A DNA stretch of 32,259 nt from a virus. The stretch spans positions 1 to 32,259 of the IMG/VR virus record IMGVR_UViG_3300027985_001080; one strand, 5' to 3'. Both the position numbers and the translations under genes were made by a program. Under the pieces are notes generated by a model, which saw only the letters and a program-made list of their open reading frames with translations, did not search any database and was not told the DNA's origin. This document shows positions 7,792 through 32,252 of this stretch, piece after piece (positions within the stretch are counted from its first letter, which is position 1; every line of letters begins with the position of its first letter).

Positions 7792-8559
7792 ATGTCGAAT
7801 CCGAACCCGAACACTGACGCCCGTGACAAGGCTCCACGGTGCTCGAAACATCGCCAGCGAGATGGCCAGCACTGTAAAGCGTTCGCAGTTCGAGGAACCG
7901 ACCCCCCAGCCTGTCGTAAGCACCTGGGCGCACCGACACAAACGGCGCGTTCACGGGAGGAGCTGCGATTGACGGTGTCCCGTTGGGGGTTGGGAGACAT
8001 CGCGGTCGATCCGGGCGTGGTGATGGTGCGGCTGGTGTCCCAGTCGGCGCAGCGGATCGAACTGTATGCCGACCTGCTGGAGAGGGCGTACGAGGCGGCC
8101 GAGCGGCTCCGTCGGGCACACGACGCCGAAGACCTGGTGGTGCAGCAGATGGACCCGGACTTGGATCGGCCTGAGGATCCATCGGTGCAGGCGGCCCGGC
8201 ATGACCTGCGGCGTATCTTCACCACCGGCGGGGTAGCGGCGTTGATCGGCTACAAGTTCGACGCCGACCGGGACGGCCGGGTCTACGCCTCCGAGGAGGC
8301 GGTACGCGGGCTGGCGAGGTTGGAGGCTGAGGAGCGGGACCGCTGTGCTGGTTTCGCCGCGAAGGCGGTTGCGGCCGGGCTGGCGGAGCGGCAGGTACGC
8401 ATCGCTGAACGGCATGGCCGGCTGATGGCTTCCACCTTCCGCGGTGCGCTCGATGACGCCGACGTTCCTGTAGGGGTCCGGCAGCGGATCGAACAGGCGT
8501 TCGCGCGTCGAATGTCCATACTTGCCGGGGATCGTGTGATCGACGGGACGCCTGTGTGA
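7792..8559 (+). CDS. terS: Terminase small subunit (putative)
   Basis: The product has 255 residues. It precedes the large terminase with a GTGA overlap, the standard position of the small, DNA-recognising packaging subunit. The N-terminus has a zinc-knuckle-like group Cys17, Cys28, Cys41 and His44 (RCSKHRQRDGQHCKA ... ACRKH), common in actinophage small terminases. The middle is helical and charged (AQRIELYADLLERAYEAAERL), and the C-terminal third (EEAVRGLARLEAEERDRC, GLAERQVRIAERHG) fits an oligomerisation and coiled-coil region. Assignment rests on layout and position; no classical N-terminal HTH is obvious. Confidence 0.75.
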   Translation: MSNPNPNTDARDKAPRCSKHRQRDGQHCKAFAVRGTDPPACRKHLGAPTQTARSREELRLTVSRWGLGDIAVDPGVVMVRLVSQSAQRIELYADLLERAYEAAERLRRAHDAEDLVVQQMDPDLDRPEDPSVQAARHDLRRIFTTGGVAALIGYKFDADRDGRVYASEEAVRGLARLEAEERDRCAGFAAKAVAAGLAERQVRIAERHGRLMASTFRGALDDADVPVGVRQRIEQAFARRMSILAGDRVIDGTPV

Positions 8560-10142
8560 CACTCGACGCGGAACCGTTCCCAGACTCCGATCGGGCGTTC
8601 ATTCGTACGATCTTCTCCGACCTGTTCGGGTCTGATCCGAAGGTTGGGCGTGACCCTACCGACCAGGATGCGTTGACAGATCCGGTTACGGTGGCGGCGC
8701 ATCTGGATCCGACGTATCGGGTACGCGCGCACCTGCGGGTGATCGGTGGCGAGTACGCGAAGCTACTTGCGGACAAGCTTGCGTACGAGCAGAACCGCAG
8801 GGCTCCACGCCTGATGGTCAACACTCCGCCTCAGGTGGGGAAGACTGTTTCTGCGGTGGAGTGGGCCGCGTTCTGGTGGCTGTGTCTTTTCCCCCGCGAC
8901 CGGGTGATCATTGGTTGTTACAACAGTGACCTGGCCGTAGACCGCGGTACAGCCATCCGACGGCTGATCAACACCTATGGGGGGCGGTACGGTCTCGCGT
9001 TGGAGCGCGGGTCGTCGGCGAAGAAGGACTGGCGGCTGACCAGCGGTGGCGGCGTCTTGAGCGTCGGTGTCGCTGCCGGTGTCACAGGCAAACCCGGCAA
9101 TTTCATCATCATCGATGATCCGACGAAATCTCGGGCGGAAGCGGACTCGCCAACCTACCGGAAAGCGGTATCCGACTGGTATTCGGCGGACCTGATGACC
9201 CGACGTTCCCCCGGCGCCCCAGTGGTGATCATCCAAACGCCGTGGACTCCACACGATCTTCGCGCGCAGGTACTTGCCCACGACGGGCGCATCGAAGACG
9301 GCGGACGGTGGCGTGTCGTTGTCATGCCAGCCCTGTGCACCGACCCGGCAACCGATCCGCTCGGCCGGGCATACGGTGATCCCCTTCCCCATCCCGCCGT
9401 CGACGAGGGCGACCGGGACGGCCTACTTGCGCACTGGGCGGAGCAGCGGGCCACTACGATGGTCCGAGATTGGATGGCGTTGTACCAGTGTGATCCGAAA
9501 CCTCAGGAAGGAACCCTCCTTGCCGGGGACCTGCTGGTCGAGCGGCGCTGTTACACGGCCGGGAACGTGTGCGCGCCTCCGCAGCGGGTGGCGGTGGCGG
9601 TTGACCCGTCCGGTGGTGGCCGGGACACCGCCGGTGTGGTGGCTGGCTACCTCGGCGATGACCAGCGGCTGTACTTGACGCATGACCGGTCCGGGGTGAT
9701 GTCATCGGAGGCGTGGTCTCGTGTGGCGTGTGAGCTGGCGCAGGAGACGAACGCGGAGTTGATTGTCTGCGAGGTCAACTTCGGGGGTGATCTGTGTACC
9801 CTTGCGATCCGTACGGCGTGGGAGGCGCTGCGCCGCGAGCATCCGCACCGGTTCGGGACCATCTGCCCGCGGATCGTCGCCGTTCGTGCCAGGCGGGGCA
9901 AGATGCTTCGCGCTGAGCCGATCGCCCAGCAGTGGCAAGAGGATCGGATCCGTACTGCGGCGTTCCTACCTGAGCTTGAAAGCGAGTGGGTTTCGTGGCT
10001 TCCGGGCCCGGAGTCTCCGGGCCGGATCGACGCGTCGGTGTACCTCGCGTACGAGCTGTTGCCGGTGCCGCAGTCGGGTGAGTCGACGGTGGCGGGCGCG
10101 CAGCATATGGCCGGAGCTAACCTGCTTCCATGGGGCCGCTAG
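8556..10142 (+). CDS. terL: Terminase large subunit (packaging ATPase and nuclease)
   Basis: The product has 528 residues from GTG 8556, overlapping the small-subunit stop. It is the motor that pumps DNA through the portal and cuts the concatemer. The ATPase half has Walker A TPPQVGKT (Lys96), a WWLCLFPRDRVIIGCYN segment, and Walker B FIIIDDP (Asp187/Asp188). The nuclease half has an RNase H-like fold with VAVDPSGGG (Asp350), CEVNFGGD, and GRIDASVYL (Asp492) as probable metal ligands. Length and motif order match actinophage TerL proteins of the DNA packaging family. It is followed by a 91-bp gap before the Acb2-like gene. Confidence 0.93.
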   Translation: MTLDAEPFPDSDRAFIRTIFSDLFGSDPKVGRDPTDQDALTDPVTVAAHLDPTYRVRAHLRVIGGEYAKLLADKLAYEQNRRAPRLMVNTPPQVGKTVSAVEWAAFWWLCLFPRDRVIIGCYNSDLAVDRGTAIRRLINTYGGRYGLALERGSSAKKDWRLTSGGGVLSVGVAAGVTGKPGNFIIIDDPTKSRAEADSPTYRKAVSDWYSADLMTRRSPGAPVVIIQTPWTPHDLRAQVLAHDGRIEDGGRWRVVVMPALCTDPATDPLGRAYGDPLPHPAVDEGDRDGLLAHWAEQRATTMVRDWMALYQCDPKPQEGTLLAGDLLVERRCYTAGNVCAPPQRVAVAVDPSGGGRDTAGVVAGYLGDDQRLYLTHDRSGVMSSEAWSRVACELAQETNAELIVCEVNFGGDLCTLAIRTAWEALRREHPHRFGTICPRIVAVRARRGKMLRAEPIAQQWQEDRIRTAAFLPELESEWVSWLPGPESPGRIDASVYLAYELLPVPQSGESTVAGAQHMAGANLLPWGR

Positions 10143-10173: not shown

Positions 10174-10215
10174 GTGACGTGCCGCTACGGTGACTGTGGT
10201 CGATGTAGCCGTTGA
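10174..10215 (+). CDS. Possible 13-residue Cys-rich peptide
   Basis: In the 91-bp gap after the terminase a GTG at 10174 opens VTCRYGDCGRCSR, then a stop. Three cysteines in 13 residues resemble a zinc knuckle like those in neighbouring small genes. GGGAG (10167-10171) is too close for a comfortable ribosome-binding site. Low confidence; it may be chance. Confidence 0.25.
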   Translation: MTCRYGDCGRCSR

Positions 10216-10233: not shown

Positions 10234-10641
10234 ATGGCCGCATACCCCGAAGACGACGTCACCCGCCGCTTCACCCACCACCCCCCAACCCGGCCCGGCA
10301 TCGCCGAACTCCACGAACACGTCCGCGGTGAATGCGCCGACCTCGCCACCGAACTCAACCGGATCATGCCGAGCTGCTACGAGGCTAGGCGCGCCATCGA
10401 CGCCGTAGACGACGCCTGCAAACACGCCAACGCGGCGGTAGCCCGCTGGATGAACTACGAGGCGGCCCCGGTGCCCGCAGTCGGTGACCTGGAAGCAAGT
10501 CGTGTCGCTGAGATCCTCGCCCAGGAGGTGCGGGGCGGTGAGTCGGTGTCAGCGGTGATGTTGCGCCTGCTGGACGAGTTGATGCGGTATCGGGGGCACG
10601 CCGCGGCGTCGGCCGCCATGACGAACGGCAGGGCCCTCTGA
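10234..10641 (+). CDS. Acb2/Tad1 hairpin-family protein (putative nucleotide sponge)
   Basis: The product has 135 residues from ATG 10234. No ribosome-binding site is visible and TACCCT lies 6 nt upstream, so a leaderless transcript is possible. Residues 11-72 match the hairpin domain I know from Acb2 and Tad1-related phage proteins: FTHHPP at 13-18, then HEHVRGECADLATELNRIMP (27-46), then a helix with the typical end HANAAVAR at 64-71. Acb2 oligomers sequester cyclic di- and trinucleotides and so block CBASS; some relatives also bind the gcADPR signals of Thoeris. Actinophages carry many untested members. The C-terminal part (about 75-135) is a helical extension (VAEILAQEVRGGESVSAVML) not needed in the minimal family. 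Family membership is by motif recall; activity is inference. Confidence 0.65.
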   Translation: MAAYPEDDVTRRFTHHPPTRPGIAELHEHVRGECADLATELNRIMPSCYEARRAIDAVDDACKHANAAVARWMNYEAAPVPAVGDLEASRVAEILAQEVRGGESVSAVMLRLLDELMRYRGHAAASAAMTNGRAL

Positions 10642-11066
10642 TGCCCGCCTGGCTGCTCGTACTGCTCATCTTCCTGGCTACCCATCGGATCACCCGGCTG
10701 ACTGTCGCCGACAACGTGCCCATGGTGAAGATCCCCCGCGATGCGGCGATCCGATACCTCGACCCCACACCGCAGCAGGTTGCCATCAACCCGATGGTGA
10801 AAGGCCACTGGGGTGGTACCGGCCGGGCGCTCGCCTACCTGCTCGAATGCCCGTGGTGCATGTCCGTGTACGTGGCCGCGGTTGTGGTGGTGGTGACCGA
10901 CTGGTGCACGTCTGTGCCGGTGCCGTGGCTGGTGTGGATCGCCGCGTCCAGCGTGACCGGATTGATCGCTGATGTCAGCGCCCGTGTCGATCAGCGGCAT
11001 GAACTGGCGGAGATCGAGAAGCGTCGGGCGACGTTCGCCGAGCAGCGGGAGACGGGGCAGCGGTGA
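10641..11066 (+). CDS. DUF1360-like membrane protein
   Basis: The product has 141 residues and its ATG overlaps the previous stop. An N-terminal hydrophobic helix (PAWLLVLLIFLATHR) leads into ITRLTVAD. ALAYLLECPWCMSVYVAAVV carries the CPWCxSVY signature of the family, followed by another membrane segment (VPWLVWIAASSVTGLIAD) and a charged, cytoplasmic C-terminal helix. The protein is expected in the membrane. The function of this widespread actinophage family is unknown to me. It is co-translated with the Acb2-like gene upstream and the zinc-knuckle peptide downstream. Confidence 0.75.
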   Translation: MPAWLLVLLIFLATHRITRLTVADNVPMVKIPRDAAIRYLDPTPQQVAINPMVKGHWGGTGRALAYLLECPWCMSVYVAAVVVVVTDWCTSVPVPWLVWIAASSVTGLIADVSARVDQRHELAEIEKRRATFAEQRETGQR

Positions 11067-11231: not shown

Positions 11232-12896
11232 ATGCCCGACCGCATCCGCGCGGCGGCACCCCCACCGCCCCTACACCCACTCACCGCCTCCGCCCAGATC
11301 ATCGCCGAAGCCCAAGCCAGCAGAAACAACAAAATCTGGCAGTACGAGTCGTGGCAGCAAGAGGCGTGGGGCTTCTACGACAGCCTCGGCGAATTCGAAT
11401 TCGGTGTCGGCTGGCTGTCCGCCGCCCTGTCCCGGGTACGGCTGACCGCCGCTGAGCTCGTCCCCGGAGGCGACGAACCCGAACTAGTCTGCGACGGGCC
11501 GGCAGCCGAGCTGGTCGAACAGCTCGGCGGCGGCATCGCCGGACGCGCCCAGATCATGAAACAGTTCGGGTTGCACCTGTCCGTGCCTGGTGAATGCTGG
11601 CTGGTCGCCGAACGCTACGACCGGCGTATCCCCCTCGCCCAGGCCGACTGGACGGTCAAGTCCACTGACGAGATCCGTCCGCTTCGCGGCGCGGATGGCG
11701 GCTATGAGATCCGAGTCGACGACAACGGGTGGCGGGCGTTGGCGCCGGAGTCGCTGCCGGTGCGGGTGTGGGATCCGCATCCACGCTGGTCGTGGAGGGC
11801 GACCTCAGCGGCCCGCTCCGCTATTCCGATCATGCGGACGGTTGAGCTACTCAACCGGCGCATCATCGCCACGCTGGTGTCTCGGCTGGCGATGAACGGG
11901 CTCCTGCTGATCCCGCAGGAGTACACGATCAACGCCCCCGCCGAGTACCAGGACAAGCCGGATCCGTTCGTGGCGATGCTCATCGACATCGCCGGGCGGA
12001 ACATCCGCGAACCTGGGTCGGCGACCGCGTCCATCCCGATCCCGTTGAAGTTTGCCTCCGAAGCCATCGACAAGTGGCGGCACTTGACTTTCGGTGACGG
12101 CGTCGACAGGGACTTGATCGATGAGCGGGAGCGTGAACTTAACCGGCTCGCCACCACGCTGAACTTGCCCACCGAAGTGTTGACCGGAATCGGCAAGATC
12201 AACCATTGGGGCCAGTGGCAGATGGAGGAATCCGGCATCAAAATGCACGTGTCCCCGGTCGCGGAAACGATCGTCGGCGCGTTGACCGTCGGATACATGC
12301 ACCCGCTGCTGAAAGCCGGCGGACATGACATGGTCGGCCCCAACGGCGGAAAGATCATCATCTGGTATGACCCGTCAGAACTGGTGGCCCGCCCCGACAA
12401 GTCACAGCAGGCGCTATCCGCCCACGACCGGATAGTCATATCCGACACGGCACTACGCCGCGAATCCGGCCTGGACGAGGCCGACGCCCCCACCGACGAC
12501 GAGGTACGCCGCCAACTGCTGGTCAAACTCGTCTCCGCCGGCAACGTACAAGCGTACGAATCCCTGACCGGTGAACGGCTCGGCGTCGCCAGCCATCCCA
12601 CCGCCGGCCCTGAAACTCTGGCCCCCGACGTGCCGCAACCCAGCGGCCCGGGTGGCGACGGCGCATCACCGCCTAAACCTGCGGTCACGCCGGGGGCCAG
12701 AACCCCACCCGACACCCGCGGAAAGCCACCACCCACCCCAGGCGAGGAGGCGATGGCGGACCTGTCCCGGCGGGTCACCGCCATGATGCCCGAACGGGTT
12801 CCATCCGCCGCCGGTATGCGGGCACCACCAGCCTCCCAGGTCAACGGTGTACGACACAGCAGGGACGGCCCCACAGGCGGGAAACGGCTTAGGTGA
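11232..12896 (+). CDS. Portal protein
   Basis: The product has 554 residues from ATG 11232. Portals form the dodecameric ring at the capsid vertex through which DNA passes. Supporting features: position directly after the terminase block and before the MuF/protease gene; an N-terminal segment KIWQYESWQQEAWGFYDSLG and EFGVGWLSAALSRV; the central MRTVELLNRRIIATLVSRL helix; DERERELNRLATTLNLPTEV followed by NHWGQWQMEESG, typical of actinophage portals; and a Pro/Gly-rich, disordered C-terminus from about residue 460. The last part overlaps the upstream reading frame of the next gene. Confidence 0.9.
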   Translation: MPDRIRAAAPPPPLHPLTASAQIIAEAQASRNNKIWQYESWQQEAWGFYDSLGEFEFGVGWLSAALSRVRLTAAELVPGGDEPELVCDGPAAELVEQLGGGIAGRAQIMKQFGLHLSVPGECWLVAERYDRRIPLAQADWTVKSTDEIRPLRGADGGYEIRVDDNGWRALAPESLPVRVWDPHPRWSWRATSAARSAIPIMRTVELLNRRIIATLVSRLAMNGLLLIPQEYTINAPAEYQDKPDPFVAMLIDIAGRNIREPGSATASIPIPLKFASEAIDKWRHLTFGDGVDRDLIDERERELNRLATTLNLPTEVLTGIGKINHWGQWQMEESGIKMHVSPVAETIVGALTVGYMHPLLKAGGHDMVGPNGGKIIIWYDPSELVARPDKSQQALSAHDRIVISDTALRRESGLDEADAPTDDEVRRQLLVKLVSAGNVQAYESLTGERLGVASHPTAGPETLAPDVPQPSGPGGDGASPPKPAVTPGARTPPDTRGKPPPTPGEEAMADLSRRVTAMMPERVPSAAGMRAPPASQVNGVRHSRDGPTGGKRLR

Positions 12897-12900
12897 GCAG

Positions 12901-15900
12901 GTGGCACGGCGGATACGAGGCTTGAACGACCGGCGCCGAGACGGGCTGATCGCCGCGGTTGAGGCGCTGGTCGTGCGGCTGCTACACCTGACCGTCAACG
13001 CCGCCGCCCGGCTGATCGACGTGGCGACGTCGCGGGAAACCGTGTCAGACGACAGTCTCGCGATCATCCCGGCGGGGTGGACGACCCGCGTCGATGACAC
13101 GCTGCTACCGGAAGTTGCCACGGTGTGGCAGGAGACGTCGCAGGCGCTGCTGGACGACGCCGACGCGTTCGGCGTCGACGTACCAGAACAACTGCTCACA
13201 CCGGACGCGTCCCAGTTTCTCGCCTCAGCACGAAACCGGCTGGTCGGCATCGGCGACGACGTGTGGGACACGGCCCGGAAGCAGCTAGCCGCCGGGGTCG
13301 CCGCCGGTGAAGGTGTCGACGAGCTGGCCGCCCGGGTCGCCGCCTCTGCCGGCCTGACGCGGGAACGGGCGATGCTGATCGCCCGCACCGAAGTCATCGC
13401 CGCATCCAACGCGGCGTCGTTGGCTACTGCGTCGCTGCTGGGCGAGGCCGGGATGGTGAAGGAGTGGCTGGCCACCCCGGATGCCCGCACCCGGGAAACT
13501 CACCGGGTCGCCGACGGGCAGCGGGTTCCGTTGACGGATCAGTTCACCGTCGGCGGGGCGGCGTTGATGTTCCCCGGTGATCCGACCGGACCACCCGACC
13601 AGGTGATCAACTGCCGGTGTTCGATCGCCTACGTTTTCGATCAGAGACAGGAGACTGTCGTGGACGACACCGGACAGCCGATCGTGGCCGCCGCTGAAAC
13701 ACATGCCGGCGCCATGGTTGCGCTCATCCCCGCCGACACCGACGCTCAACGCCTCGCCGTTGACGGAGGCGAGCCGGTCGACCAGCTACACGTCACCGTC
13801 GCCTACCTCGGCGACGCTGCCAGTTGCCCCGGCCACATCCGCAAACGGATCATCTCCGATCTGGAAGACGCCGCCGCCGGCTGGCCGCCGCTTTCCGCCG
13901 ACGGGTTCGCGATCAGCGTGTTCAACCCGCCCGGCCACACCAGCATGGCCGACGGCAAGGACCGGGACACGTGCGTGACGCTCGGCGTGTCCGGTGACGA
14001 CCTCGAAGACGTGTACGACACCGTTTCCGAAGTGGTTCAGGATGCCGCCGACCCGGACGAGTGGACGCTCCCACGGCAGCACAGCCCGTGGGCGCCACAC
14101 ATGACGTTGCAGTACACCGACGATGTCACCCGCACCGTCGACCTGGTCGACCGGGCCGGGCCGGTCACGTTCGACCGGCTGCGGGTGACGTTCGGCGACG
14201 ACACCGTCGACATTCCTCTCACCGGCGAGGACCTCGCCGACGACATGGCCGATGTGGCCGGCGACGCCGAAGACGACACCGACTGGGATGCGTACTTCAA
14301 CGCCGCGATCCAGGAGTTCCTGCAAAACGATCGCCCCTTGCGCGAGTACTGGGTGCACGGCAAAGGCGCGTTGAAGATCCGCTGGCCGCAGAAGGGTGCG
14401 TTCAAACGCTGCGTCCGCCAGCTACGCAAGTATGTGCGGGACCCGAAAGGACTGTGCGCCGTGTACTACCGGGAAGCAAACGGCCGCTGGCCGGGGTCGA
14501 AGAAGAAGCACAGCGCCGCCTCCCTGGACGTTTTGCAGGTGGACGAACCCGACCAGCCGATGGTGGAACCGGACCAGCCGGACCAGCCGGCGCCGATGCC
14601 GGAAGACGGCACCGGTATCGGCTTCGCGCCCGGCGAGCACTGGCACGCCATCATGCATGTTGAGGGAGTGTCGACTGGTCTGCGCACCTACACCGGGTTG
14701 ACGTGGCGGGAACCACCGTTCGCATTCCACTGGGCCATCCAGTCGGCCGCACATGGTGGCACACCCGAAACCGTGCAGGTGGGTTTGGTCACCCGCGTCG
14801 AACGTCACGGCGACGCCATCCACGGCTGGGGCACCCTCGACCTCGGCTCCGACGATGGCAGCGAGTACGCCCGTAAACTCGCCGCCGGGTTCGCCCGCTG
14901 GGTGTCGATCGGTTTGGACGAGTCGTTCAAGGAATCAGATATCGAATACATGTGGCCCGACGGCGCCGACATGTTCGACACCGAGCCGGAAGAGATGCTC
15001 ATCACCAGCGGCCGGATCGGCGAGTTGACCGCCGTGTCGGTGCCCGCACAGCAGGAGGCCGTCGTGGAACCGTCCCCGGAACTGCTCGCCGTGTTCGACG
15101 TCGTCACCGAGCCGATGACCGCCGCGGCGGTCGGCGTGCACAAGACCGGCACCACCGACGATCCGTGGGACGCCGACATGATGGTCAAACGGCTACCGTC
15201 ACCGATGCCGGTCGAAACAGCCCGCGATGTGTACGCGTGGATCGATGAATCCCGCATCCAAGACGGCATGATCCCGAAAGACGCGTGTAAGTTCCCCCAC
15301 CATCAGGTGTCCGCTGACGGGCGGCCGGGTGCGGCGAACCTGGTCGGATGTTCACGGACGATCGGCGCGTTACACGGTGCGCGGGGCCGCGAGCCGGACA
15401 TTCCCGACGCCGACCGGCGTGGCGTGTACAACCATGTGGCCGCGCACCTGCGTTCCGCGGACCGGGAGGTGCCCGACTTCACCGCATCATCGTCCCCGAC
15501 GGTGGTCGTCGCCGCCGGACACACGATCACCATCCCGGACGTTCCCCCCGCCGGCTGGTTCACCGAACCGGACGATGTCGGTGTGGAAGGCGCGTTGACC
15601 GTCACCGACGGCGGACGTATCTACGGCTACCTCGCCCCCGCCGGCATCGCTCACCGCTCATTCACCGACCGGCGGGTTGAGGTGCCGATGGGTAACGTCG
15701 ACTACTCCCGGTGGATGGGTGGAGAAGCCCTGGTTGCCGGTGGCGGGCGGGTCGTGGCCGGGCCAATCACGATGGAATGCGGGCACCTGCCCCCCGGCGC
15801 GTCGGCGGCCAGCCGGGTACGTATGGAGCACTACGACAACACCTGTTCGGTGGTGGCGAAAGCAGCTATCGGGGAGAACCGGCACGGGGTGTGGATCGCC

Positions 15901-16248
15901 GGGGCGTTGGAGCCGGGGGTGAACGCCGAGCAGGTGTCGCGGATGCTGGCGTGCCGGCTATCCGGGGATTGGGCTCCACATCCGGAACGGCCAGGCTGGC
16001 GAGAGTTCGTGGCGGCGTTACTTGTGCCGGTTCCCGGGTTCGCGATGGGCCGTGCCGCCCCGTCGGTGATGGTGTCGGATGGTGCGCTGGTCGCCTCGGT
16101 GGTGCCGGTACGGATGGCGGATCCTGCACTGGTCGTGGCCGACACCGGCGTGGACCTGAATCCGGTGATGGACTATGTCGCCCGCAGGATCGGCCGGGAC
16201 GCGGCGTCGCGGATGGCGTCGCTACGAGCGCGTGTCGGCCGGGATTGA
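12901..16248 (+). CDS. Polyprotein: MuF head morphogenesis, 2H phosphoesterase and capsid protease
   Basis: The product has about 1115 residues. GTG 12901 is preferred, with AGGTGAG over the portal stop; GTG 12847 is an in-frame alternative. Domain order from that start: (1) about 1-245, MuF-like, with LIARTEVIAASNAA, WLATPDARTRETH and NCRC; (2) about 270-430, a 2H-phosphoesterase pattern with two HxT motifs, HVTVAYLG (His297) and PHMTLQY (His400), 103 residues apart; (3) about 460-540, DYF/REYWVHGKGALKIRW module ending GRWPGSKKKHS; (4) a PDQP-repeat linker; (5) about 575-720, prohead-protease-like, with probable catalytic His618 in AAHGG and Ser669 in WVSIGLDE; (6) about 757-860, KFPHHQVSADGRPGAANL module; (7) a C-terminal beta-rich region with YGYLAP and MECGHLPPGA. 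MuF and protease shape the procapsid; the role of the 2H domain is unknown. Confidence 0.82.
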   Translation: MARRIRGLNDRRRDGLIAAVEALVVRLLHLTVNAAARLIDVATSRETVSDDSLAIIPAGWTTRVDDTLLPEVATVWQETSQALLDDADAFGVDVPEQLLTPDASQFLASARNRLVGIGDDVWDTARKQLAAGVAAGEGVDELAARVAASAGLTRERAMLIARTEVIAASNAASLATASLLGEAGMVKEWLATPDARTRETHRVADGQRVPLTDQFTVGGAALMFPGDPTGPPDQVINCRCSIAYVFDQRQETVVDDTGQPIVAAAETHAGAMVALIPADTDAQRLAVDGGEPVDQLHVTVAYLGDAASCPGHIRKRIISDLEDAAAGWPPLSADGFAISVFNPPGHTSMADGKDRDTCVTLGVSGDDLEDVYDTVSEVVQDAADPDEWTLPRQHSPWAPHMTLQYTDDVTRTVDLVDRAGPVTFDRLRVTFGDDTVDIPLTGEDLADDMADVAGDAEDDTDWDAYFNAAIQEFLQNDRPLREYWVHGKGALKIRWPQKGAFKRCVRQLRKYVRDPKGLCAVYYREANGRWPGSKKKHSAASLDVLQVDEPDQPMVEPDQPDQPAPMPEDGTGIGFAPGEHWHAIMHVEGVSTGLRTYTGLTWREPPFAFHWAIQSAAHGGTPETVQVGLVTRVERHGDAIHGWGTLDLGSDDGSEYARKLAAGFARWVSIGLDESFKESDIEYMWPDGADMFDTEPEEMLITSGRIGELTAVSVPAQQEAVVEPSPELLAVFDVVTEPMTAAAVGVHKTGTTDDPWDADMMVKRLPSPMPVETARDVYAWIDESRIQDGMIPKDACKFPHHQVSADGRPGAANLVGCSRTIGALHGARGREPDIPDADRRGVYNHVAAHLRSADREVPDFTASSSPTVVVAAGHTITIPDVPPAGWFTEPDDVGVEGALTVTDGGRIYGYLAPAGIAHRSFTDRRVEVPMGNVDYSRWMGGEALVAGGGRVVAGPITMECGHLPPGASAASRVRMEHYDNTCSVVAKAAIGENRHGVWIAGALEPGVNAEQVSRMLACRLSGDWAPHPERPGWREFVAALLVPVPGFAMGRAAPSVMVSDGALVASVVPVRMADPALVVADTGVDLNPVMDYVARRIGRDAASRMASLRARVGRD

Positions 16249-31420: not shown

Positions 31421-32070
31421 TGACTACGTCTAGTGCTGATCAGGGTTTGGTGTTGCCTAGTTCTGGCGATAGCAGTGACGCTGTTACGGCGTTTACGTCG
31501 TATAACGATGGGGTTGAGTCACGTCTTGTCAAACGGTACGCCTCAGCGGCGGAGCGTACCGTCCGGAACCCAACCCCCAACGAAGGAGAACTTGGGCACG
31601 TCTCCGCCACGAGCAGGTTTTACGTTTATGACGGCTCCGCTTGGGTGGACCTGCTGGAGCAGTCAGCTCCTGAATCAGTCGTGGGAACTGACGGGACCGA
31701 TGCCTCCAGCCTCAGCAGCACGACGTACGCCACCGGAGCGACGGTGTGTAGCGCCACCTTCACCGCGTCGTCGTCTGGCCGGGCGTTTGTGCATCTTTAC
31801 GGACGGCTCGGCTCGGACGGCACGAACCGCACATATCTGAGTTTCGCGATCAACGAAGATGATATCGGCGGCGTCGAAGTTCTCGGCGCCAGCGACAACA
31901 GAGCTTTGACCGTGCAGATAAACAGCCCGTTCATCGGCCTCGGTATGACCAAGCTGGTCACGGGGCTCACCGTCGGGCAAACCTACTTCGCGTATGTCGT
32001 GTACCGCGTCTCCGGCGGGTCATCAGGCGCATACGTTCACCGTGAAATCGCCGTTGGCCCGGCGACGTGA
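31420..32070 (+). CDS. Tail fibre protein, copy 1
   Basis: The product has 216 residues from ATG 31420. Residues 1-58 (TSSADQGLVLPSSGDSSDAV, VESRLVKRYASAAERTVRNP) are an attachment segment that is repeated almost exactly in the next gene. SRFYVYDGSAWVDLLEQ follows, a short motif common in actinophage fibres. From about residue 85 there is a jelly-roll-like domain (FTASSSGRAFVHLYGRL, TYLSFAINEDDIGGVEVLG, VTGLTVGQTYFAYVVYRVSG), probably the tip that meets the cell surface. GC is lower in the 5' part. The gene is followed after 9 bp by a second copy. Confidence 0.65.
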   Translation: MTTSSADQGLVLPSSGDSSDAVTAFTSYNDGVESRLVKRYASAAERTVRNPTPNEGELGHVSATSRFYVYDGSAWVDLLEQSAPESVVGTDGTDASSLSSTTYATGATVCSATFTASSSGRAFVHLYGRLGSDGTNRTYLSFAINEDDIGGVEVLGASDNRALTVQINSPFIGLGMTKLVTGLTVGQTYFAYVVYRVSGGSSGAYVHREIAVGPAT

Positions 32071-32252
32071 GGGGTTACTGTGACTACGTCTAGTGCTGAT
32101 CAGGGTTTGGTGTTGCCTAGTTCTGGCGATAGCACTGCCGCTGTTACAGCGTTTACGTCGTATAACGATGGGGTTGAGTCACGTCTTGTCAAACGGTACG
32201 CCTCCGCGGCGGAGCGTACCGTCCGGAACCCAACCCCCAACGAAGGAGAACT
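31421..32252 (+). repeat. Direct repeat of 172 bp (31421-31592 and 32081-32252)
   Basis: The two copies are exactly 660 bp apart and differ at 4 of 172 positions; two differences are silent. They begin at the second base of the start codons and end at GAAGGAGAACT. The low divergence means recent duplication or continued gene conversion. Recombination between the copies would delete or swap one complete fibre tip in frame. Confidence 0.9.

Follow-up and report, generated by a model that had tools for sequence, protein, structure and literature searches.

The window, meaning here the whole stretch of 32,259 bases that was analysed, comprises an entire virus record, which is probably a fragment. 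It encodes a sliding clamp, WhiB and a DnaB helicase, and its nearest phage matches are mostly phages of Gordonia, Saccharomonospora and other actinobacterial hosts; together, these features point to an actinobacterial phage, a virus of soil-type bacteria. On the plus strand, an uninterrupted open reading frame (ORF) running from ATG to TGA at 10234-10641 encodes a protein of 135 amino acids (MAAYPEDDVTRRFTHHPPTRPGIAELHEHVRGECADLATELNRIMPSCYEARRAIDAVDDACKHANAAVARWMNYEAAPVPAVGDLEASRVAEILAQEVRGGESVSAVMLRLLDELMRYRGHAAASAAMTNGRAL). As the preliminary description had placed it, this gene is located between the terminase and portal genes, in the order terminase, hairpin gene, DUF1360 gene, portal. 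The relevant features are the following:

8556-10142, plus strand: large terminase subunit (context; tblastn against phage terminases, best 52.9% identity, Saccharomonospora phage PIS 136)
10234-10638 (stop TGA 10639-10641), plus strand: Acb2/Tad1-hairpin-domain protein, 135 aa (ORF, Pfam PF24729, leave-one-out profile)
10249-10449, plus strand: hairpin domain, residues 6-72, with a short N-terminal helix, FTHHPP, two long helices and ANAAVAR (profile match 6-71; AlphaFold2 block pLDDT about 92-98)
10276-10278, plus strand: codon of H15, aligned to Y8 of T4 Vs.4 (Pfam end points and gapless motif reading; MAFFT shifts this stretch by one residue)
10324-10326, plus strand: codon of R31, aligned to the ligand contact K23 of Vs.4 (R in 81 of 82 aligned sequences)
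10375-10389, plus strand: CYEAR, residues 48-52, replacing the GREKS/SREKS inter-helix loop of the stand-alone family (column counts)
10450-10638, plus strand: C-terminal extension, residues 73-135, two predicted helices (no relative detected; third-position C/G break; structure models)
10639-10643, plus strand: TGATG, one-base overlap of the hairpin stop and the DUF1360 ATG (sequence)
10641-11066, plus strand: DUF1360 (PF07098) protein (context; Pfam E 4.3e-10, above cut-off)
11232-12896, plus strand: portal protein (context; tblastn against phage portal proteins)

The hairpin gene has a GC3 of 0.84 and a codon score typical for the genes of the window. No Shine-Dalgarno-like sequence was found directly upstream of the ATG at 10234, and a sigma-70 consensus scan detected no promoter or terminator belonging to the gene itself. 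The TGATG overlap with the DUF1360 start may reflect translational coupling. A short ORF with a GTG start (MTCRYGDCGRCSR) and GGGAG just 5' of it extends over 10174-10215; it shares the frame of the hairpin gene and stops at a TGA 18 bases 5' of the hairpin ATG, which has no clear ribosome-binding site; this ORF could be a leader peptide or a coupling element for the hairpin gene.

Two further observations concern other parts of the window. The MuF head protein (ORF 12847-16248) carries, at residues 310-437, a 2'-5' RNA ligase/2H phosphoesterase domain (PF13563, E 3.7e-8, above cut-off) with both HxTx motifs (HVTV and HMTL) present. The 2H phosphoesterase superfamily includes the anti-CBASS nuclease Acb1 (PMC11722364), and no Acb1 structure was matched by the sequence of the MuF 2H region. 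A tblastn search with this region retrieved 335 phage records, all with actinobacterial hosts. In the related record L095, the ORF right after the MuF gene (L095:10232-12694) encodes a NUDIX domain (E 6.7e-18), and the MuF ORF of PIS 136 contains neither a 2H phosphoesterase nor a NUDIX domain; judging from these domain matches, the MuF/protease protein seems to have an exchangeable enzyme domain, either within it or next to it. At the end of the contig, a 172-base direct repeat (31421-31592 and 32081-32252, 98% identical) gives rise to two successive ORFs whose N-termini are almost identical (MTTSSADQGLVLPSSGDS...) and which are probably duplicated tail genes.

The Pfam model of the Acb2/Tad1 hairpin (PF24729, curated gathering cut-off 27 bits) matches the 135-aa protein with 35.2 bits (E 1.5e-8), aligning residues 15-71 with model positions 2-58 of 58. 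A leave-one-out profile, built from 54 homologues with the window protein excluded, gives 78.9 bits (E 1.9e-23) over residues 6-71, compared with a top score of 7.9 bits among 1000 shuffles of the protein; of the window's 445 stop-to-stop frames, only the hairpin ORF matches this profile. The stand-alone hairpin family, phrog_1454, matches the window protein at E 5e-13, and phrog_717, which represents Acb2 proper, does not match it. The assignment to the hairpin family, for which the preliminary description had named a profile search as the check, is therefore borne out by matches above cut-off. Those members of the family that have been tested sequester signal molecules of bacterial antiviral defence. 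No full-length relatives of the 135-aa protein were found in IMG/VR or GTDB genomes.

The link of the stand-alone family to proven Acb2 proteins appears weak outside PF24729 and rests mainly on this shared Pfam model, which T4 Vs.4 matches with 71.4 bits. Comparison of the stand-alone family with phrog_717 by hhalign yields a weak match over the second helix (E 1.2e-4, probability 56%), our own stand-alone-family profile scores Vs.4 at E 0.12, and Vs.4 reaches phrog_1454 at E 7e-4. In a phmmer search, Vs.4 finds PaP2 p26 at E 0.03, so that proven Acb2 proteins are equally divergent from each other. Given the weak link to Vs.4 outside Pfam, the window protein can be filed, by its sequence, as a divergent stand-alone member of the known Acb2/Tad1 hairpin superfamily, but not under Acb2 proper.

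The predicted structure agrees with this placement. Acb2 protomers consist of a short N-terminal helix followed by two long antiparallel helices (PMC12043709), and the AlphaFold2 monomer prediction for the window protein, made from an alignment of 55 sequences, has the same layout, with helices at residues 6-11, 21-44 and 49-77 (block pLDDT about 92-98). The hairpin fold, also proposed for checking in the preliminary description, was thus recovered at high confidence (block pLDDT about 94-98 for the hairpin of the two long helices), and the FTHHPP start (residues 13-18) and the ANAAVAR end (residues 65-71) that it had recognized are both present. Foldseek comparison with predicted viral structures retrieved phage hairpin proteins, several of them named Acb2/Tad1 hairpin, with probabilities up to 1.00. 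Searches of the PDB with Foldseek and VIA-align returned generic helical matches, with no Acb2 or Tad1 among the matches listed, which we do not count as evidence against the family. One sequence departure within the hairpin is the CYEAR loop. The (G/S)RE-K-S version is common, not universal, in the family: R occupies the position of Y49 in 72 of the 82 aligned sequences and K the position of A51 in 59, so other members depart from GREKS as well.

Beyond the hairpin, the preliminary description had noted a helical C-terminal extension of about 60 residues. AlphaFold2 indeed predicts two helices here (residues 83-100 and 105-134), with a lower confidence (block pLDDT 52-87) than for the hairpin. 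Residues 73-135 have no relatives in Pfam, IMG/VR or GTDB genomes and no significant ones in phages (best E 2). At codons 66-71, that is, at the end of the hairpin, the third-position C share of C+G switches from 87% to 40%; none of 413 overlapping 135-codon stretches in other genes of the window contains an equally strong break, with those in MuF and portal being nearly as large. This shift in codon usage suggests a fusion between the hairpin and a segment of different origin. Having an extension is not new in the family, given that unrelated extensions are present in Nergal gp2 and KimJongPhill gp38. A single-sequence model of the extension produced insignificant Foldseek matches only, the best being MatP and TraM with E above 2, and a DNA-binding reading of this segment was dropped for that reason.

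The best reference for function is T4 Vs.4, a proven cGAMP sponge that forms a hexamer and binds its ligand with a Kd of about 30 nM (PMC10097602). Its ligand contacts are Y8, the base-stacking residue, H11, K23, R79 and F82, with the S74N substitution also disturbing ligand binding, and its hexamer interface includes L29, A66, A73 and A77 (PMC10097602). In the 82-sequence alignment, the window protein retains all four of these interface residues, as L37, A54, A61 and A65. H15 and R31 are conservative counterparts of Y8 and K23 in what is an uncertain inter-family alignment; the pairing of H15 with Y8 comes from the Pfam model, in which residue 7 of Vs.4 falls on position 1 and residue 15 of the window protein on position 2. 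In the column of H15, the 82 sequences have tyrosine 40 times, phenylalanine 21 times and histidine 19 times, so that a ring is kept almost always and histidine is common. The remaining ligand-binding positions, H11, S74, R79 and F82, align with P18, C62, A67 and A70 and are unmatched, with the same uncertainty of the inter-family alignment, in which the N-terminal stretch is shifted by one residue.

The conserved scaffold and the ring/cation pair, together with the unconserved loop, lead us to read the window protein as a sponge, possibly one with a shifted ligand range. The most likely reading, and one we hold to be reasonably probable on the grounds of sequence and modelling, is that it serves phage counter-defence as an oligomeric hairpin sponge for cyclic nucleotide immune signals. 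Protomers formed by the short helix and the two antiparallel helices would assemble into a hexamer through their alanine/leucine helix faces; cyclic nucleotide signals would be held at the protomer interfaces, with H15 stacking on the ligand and R31 contacting its phosphate; and with the signal sequestered, effectors of the CBASS (or Thoeris) type would not be triggered during infection. The proposed sponge would carry an added C-terminal helical segment. The family part of the preliminary description's reading stands. The window protein is not close to experimentally proven Acb2: outside the Pfam model the link of its family to Vs.4 is weak, GREKS is lost and several Vs.4 ligand residues are unmatched. 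That it sequesters cyclic nucleotides is therefore something that we infer.

The genomic position of the gene bears on an alternative function. Among 27 virus contigs with both a hairpin gene and a detectable large terminase gene, the two are located within 2.5 kb of each other in 12, compared with 3.7 expected under random placement (P about 2e-4; the statistic is approximate, as a few contigs are near-duplicates). A hairpin gene is found between terminase and portal in LuckySocke, pSt2308, GiJojo, L025 and L042. The idea that a late, packaging-region position sets this member apart was rejected on these grounds. The clustering, the overlap of the hairpin stop with the DUF1360 start and the divergence of the ligand-loop residues would fit a hairpin whose nucleotide binding has been lost or altered and which, keeping its fold for oligomerisation, now has a part in packaging DNA or assembling the head, perhaps as a cofactor of terminase or portal. 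We regard this as unlikely, because the gene appears dispensable for packaging: in PIS 136 and L095, which carry the two closest relatives of the window terminase (about 51-53% identical), terminase is followed directly by DUF1360 (or a comparable small ORF) and then by portal, with no hairpin gene in the slot. In addition, relatives are located in unrelated modules, and the window protein has kept R31 and a ring at position 15. The empty slot in these two phages marks the hairpin gene as an accessory gene and, judged by gene order, it is an accessory insertion into a slot used repeatedly by the family. Elsewhere, relatives lie between endolysin and holin (Jace), beside thymidylate synthase (Anthony), beside an RNA ligase (ChisanaKitsune) and in the tail region (S-2L); such a spread over lysis, nucleotide metabolism, RNA ligase, tail and packaging contexts is expected of a transferable accessory gene. 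A pairing of the hairpin gene with DUF1360 was also considered and no firm link emerged: DUF1360 is present in 10 of 50 hairpin contigs and adjoins the hairpin gene in few of them, although L042 repeats the order terminase, hairpin, DUF1360, portal with other ORFs in between.

Two further points concern members of the family. In cyanophage S-2L, an unannotated hairpin gene (L012:3001-3192) overlaps the 5' end of the gene annotated as tail assembly. A 592-aa open frame (L051:2429-4207) ends in a PF24729 domain (residues 528-584), its remainder matching no Pfam model; it may be a large hairpin fusion or a start-site artefact.

A second alternative retains the sponge and changes its target. The CYEAR loop and the C-terminal helices might reflect a non-CBASS ligand, for instance an ADP-ribose signal of Thoeris or a different small nucleotide. 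The replacement of the GREKS loop, with CYE also carried by the relatives L028 and L029, is compatible with such a change, as is the presence of a related stretch, SSREN..ALTHVEEALMWMN, a version of the stand-alone-family loop stretch, in Tad1, which binds gcADPR plus cyclic nucleotides (PMC12043709). The N-terminal beta domain of Tad1 (PMC12043709) is absent from the window protein, however, and we give this variant, too, only a small share of the probability. Far less probable still is a composite system, in which the altered-loop hairpin, fused to a new C-terminal module that changes its assembly or tethers it, would work alongside the MuF 2H phosphoesterase, the virion-borne enzyme degrading signals early in infection and the sponge acting later. 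That the frame is spurious or decaying and merely resembles the family is very improbable, since the missing Shine-Dalgarno-like sequence and the lack of a close full-length relative in IMG/VR and GTDB genomes are outweighed by the leave-one-out score, well above that of any shuffle, and by the intact frame with its high GC3 and typical codon score.

Actinobacterial phages encode many stand-alone hairpin proteins: a search with a generic hairpin sequence matched 342 phage records, 211 of which are mycobacteriophages. The genome note on Microbacterium phage Statler mentions a hairpin protein, without a functional test (PMC13348362); the searchable literature yielded no other actinophage mention of the protein, and the literature search found no ligand-binding data for any actinophage hairpin protein. 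The ligands of these proteins would reveal whether actinophages face nucleotide-signal defences, and a ligand survey would gain a useful outlier from the diverged CYEAR subgroup.

Among known systems, the closest to the window protein are the stand-alone hairpin proteins of phrog_1454, deposited in UniProt as “Acb2/Tad1 hairpin domain-containing protein”, examples of which include L015, LuckySocke gp72 and KimJongPhill gp38. They share the motif F-x-(Y/F/H)-H-P...R...ANAAIAR and the hairpin size, and several adjoin terminase; identity over the hairpin reaches at best 49% (L015), and the window protein differs in the change of GREKS to CYEAR, of W64 to H and of T56 to D and in its unique C-terminal extension. 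Vs.4 and PaP2 p26 (phrog_717) resemble it in the PF24729 domain (Vs.4), the short helix and two long predicted helices, the retained aligned interface residues and the ring and cation at the positions of Y8 and K23. They differ in lacking the FxYHPP and GREKS motifs and in the Vs.4 ligand residues that are unmatched in the window protein, and the inter-helix segment of Vs.4 is longer by about 19 residues. Tad1 has, in its C-terminal helical part, the RE..ALT.(L/V)EEA.MW.N stretch common to the stand-alone family, which is the part most diverged in the window protein; in place of the Tad1-type N-terminal beta-sheet domain, the latter has 14 residues before the matched domain, with no predicted strand. 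Finally, Acb2 homolog 43 (PDB 9ptq) is the top PDB sequence match to the stand-alone family profile (32.8 bits); in contrast to the window protein, it has 76 residues, no extension and a conserved PEGREKS, and its ANA-AR end is diverged.
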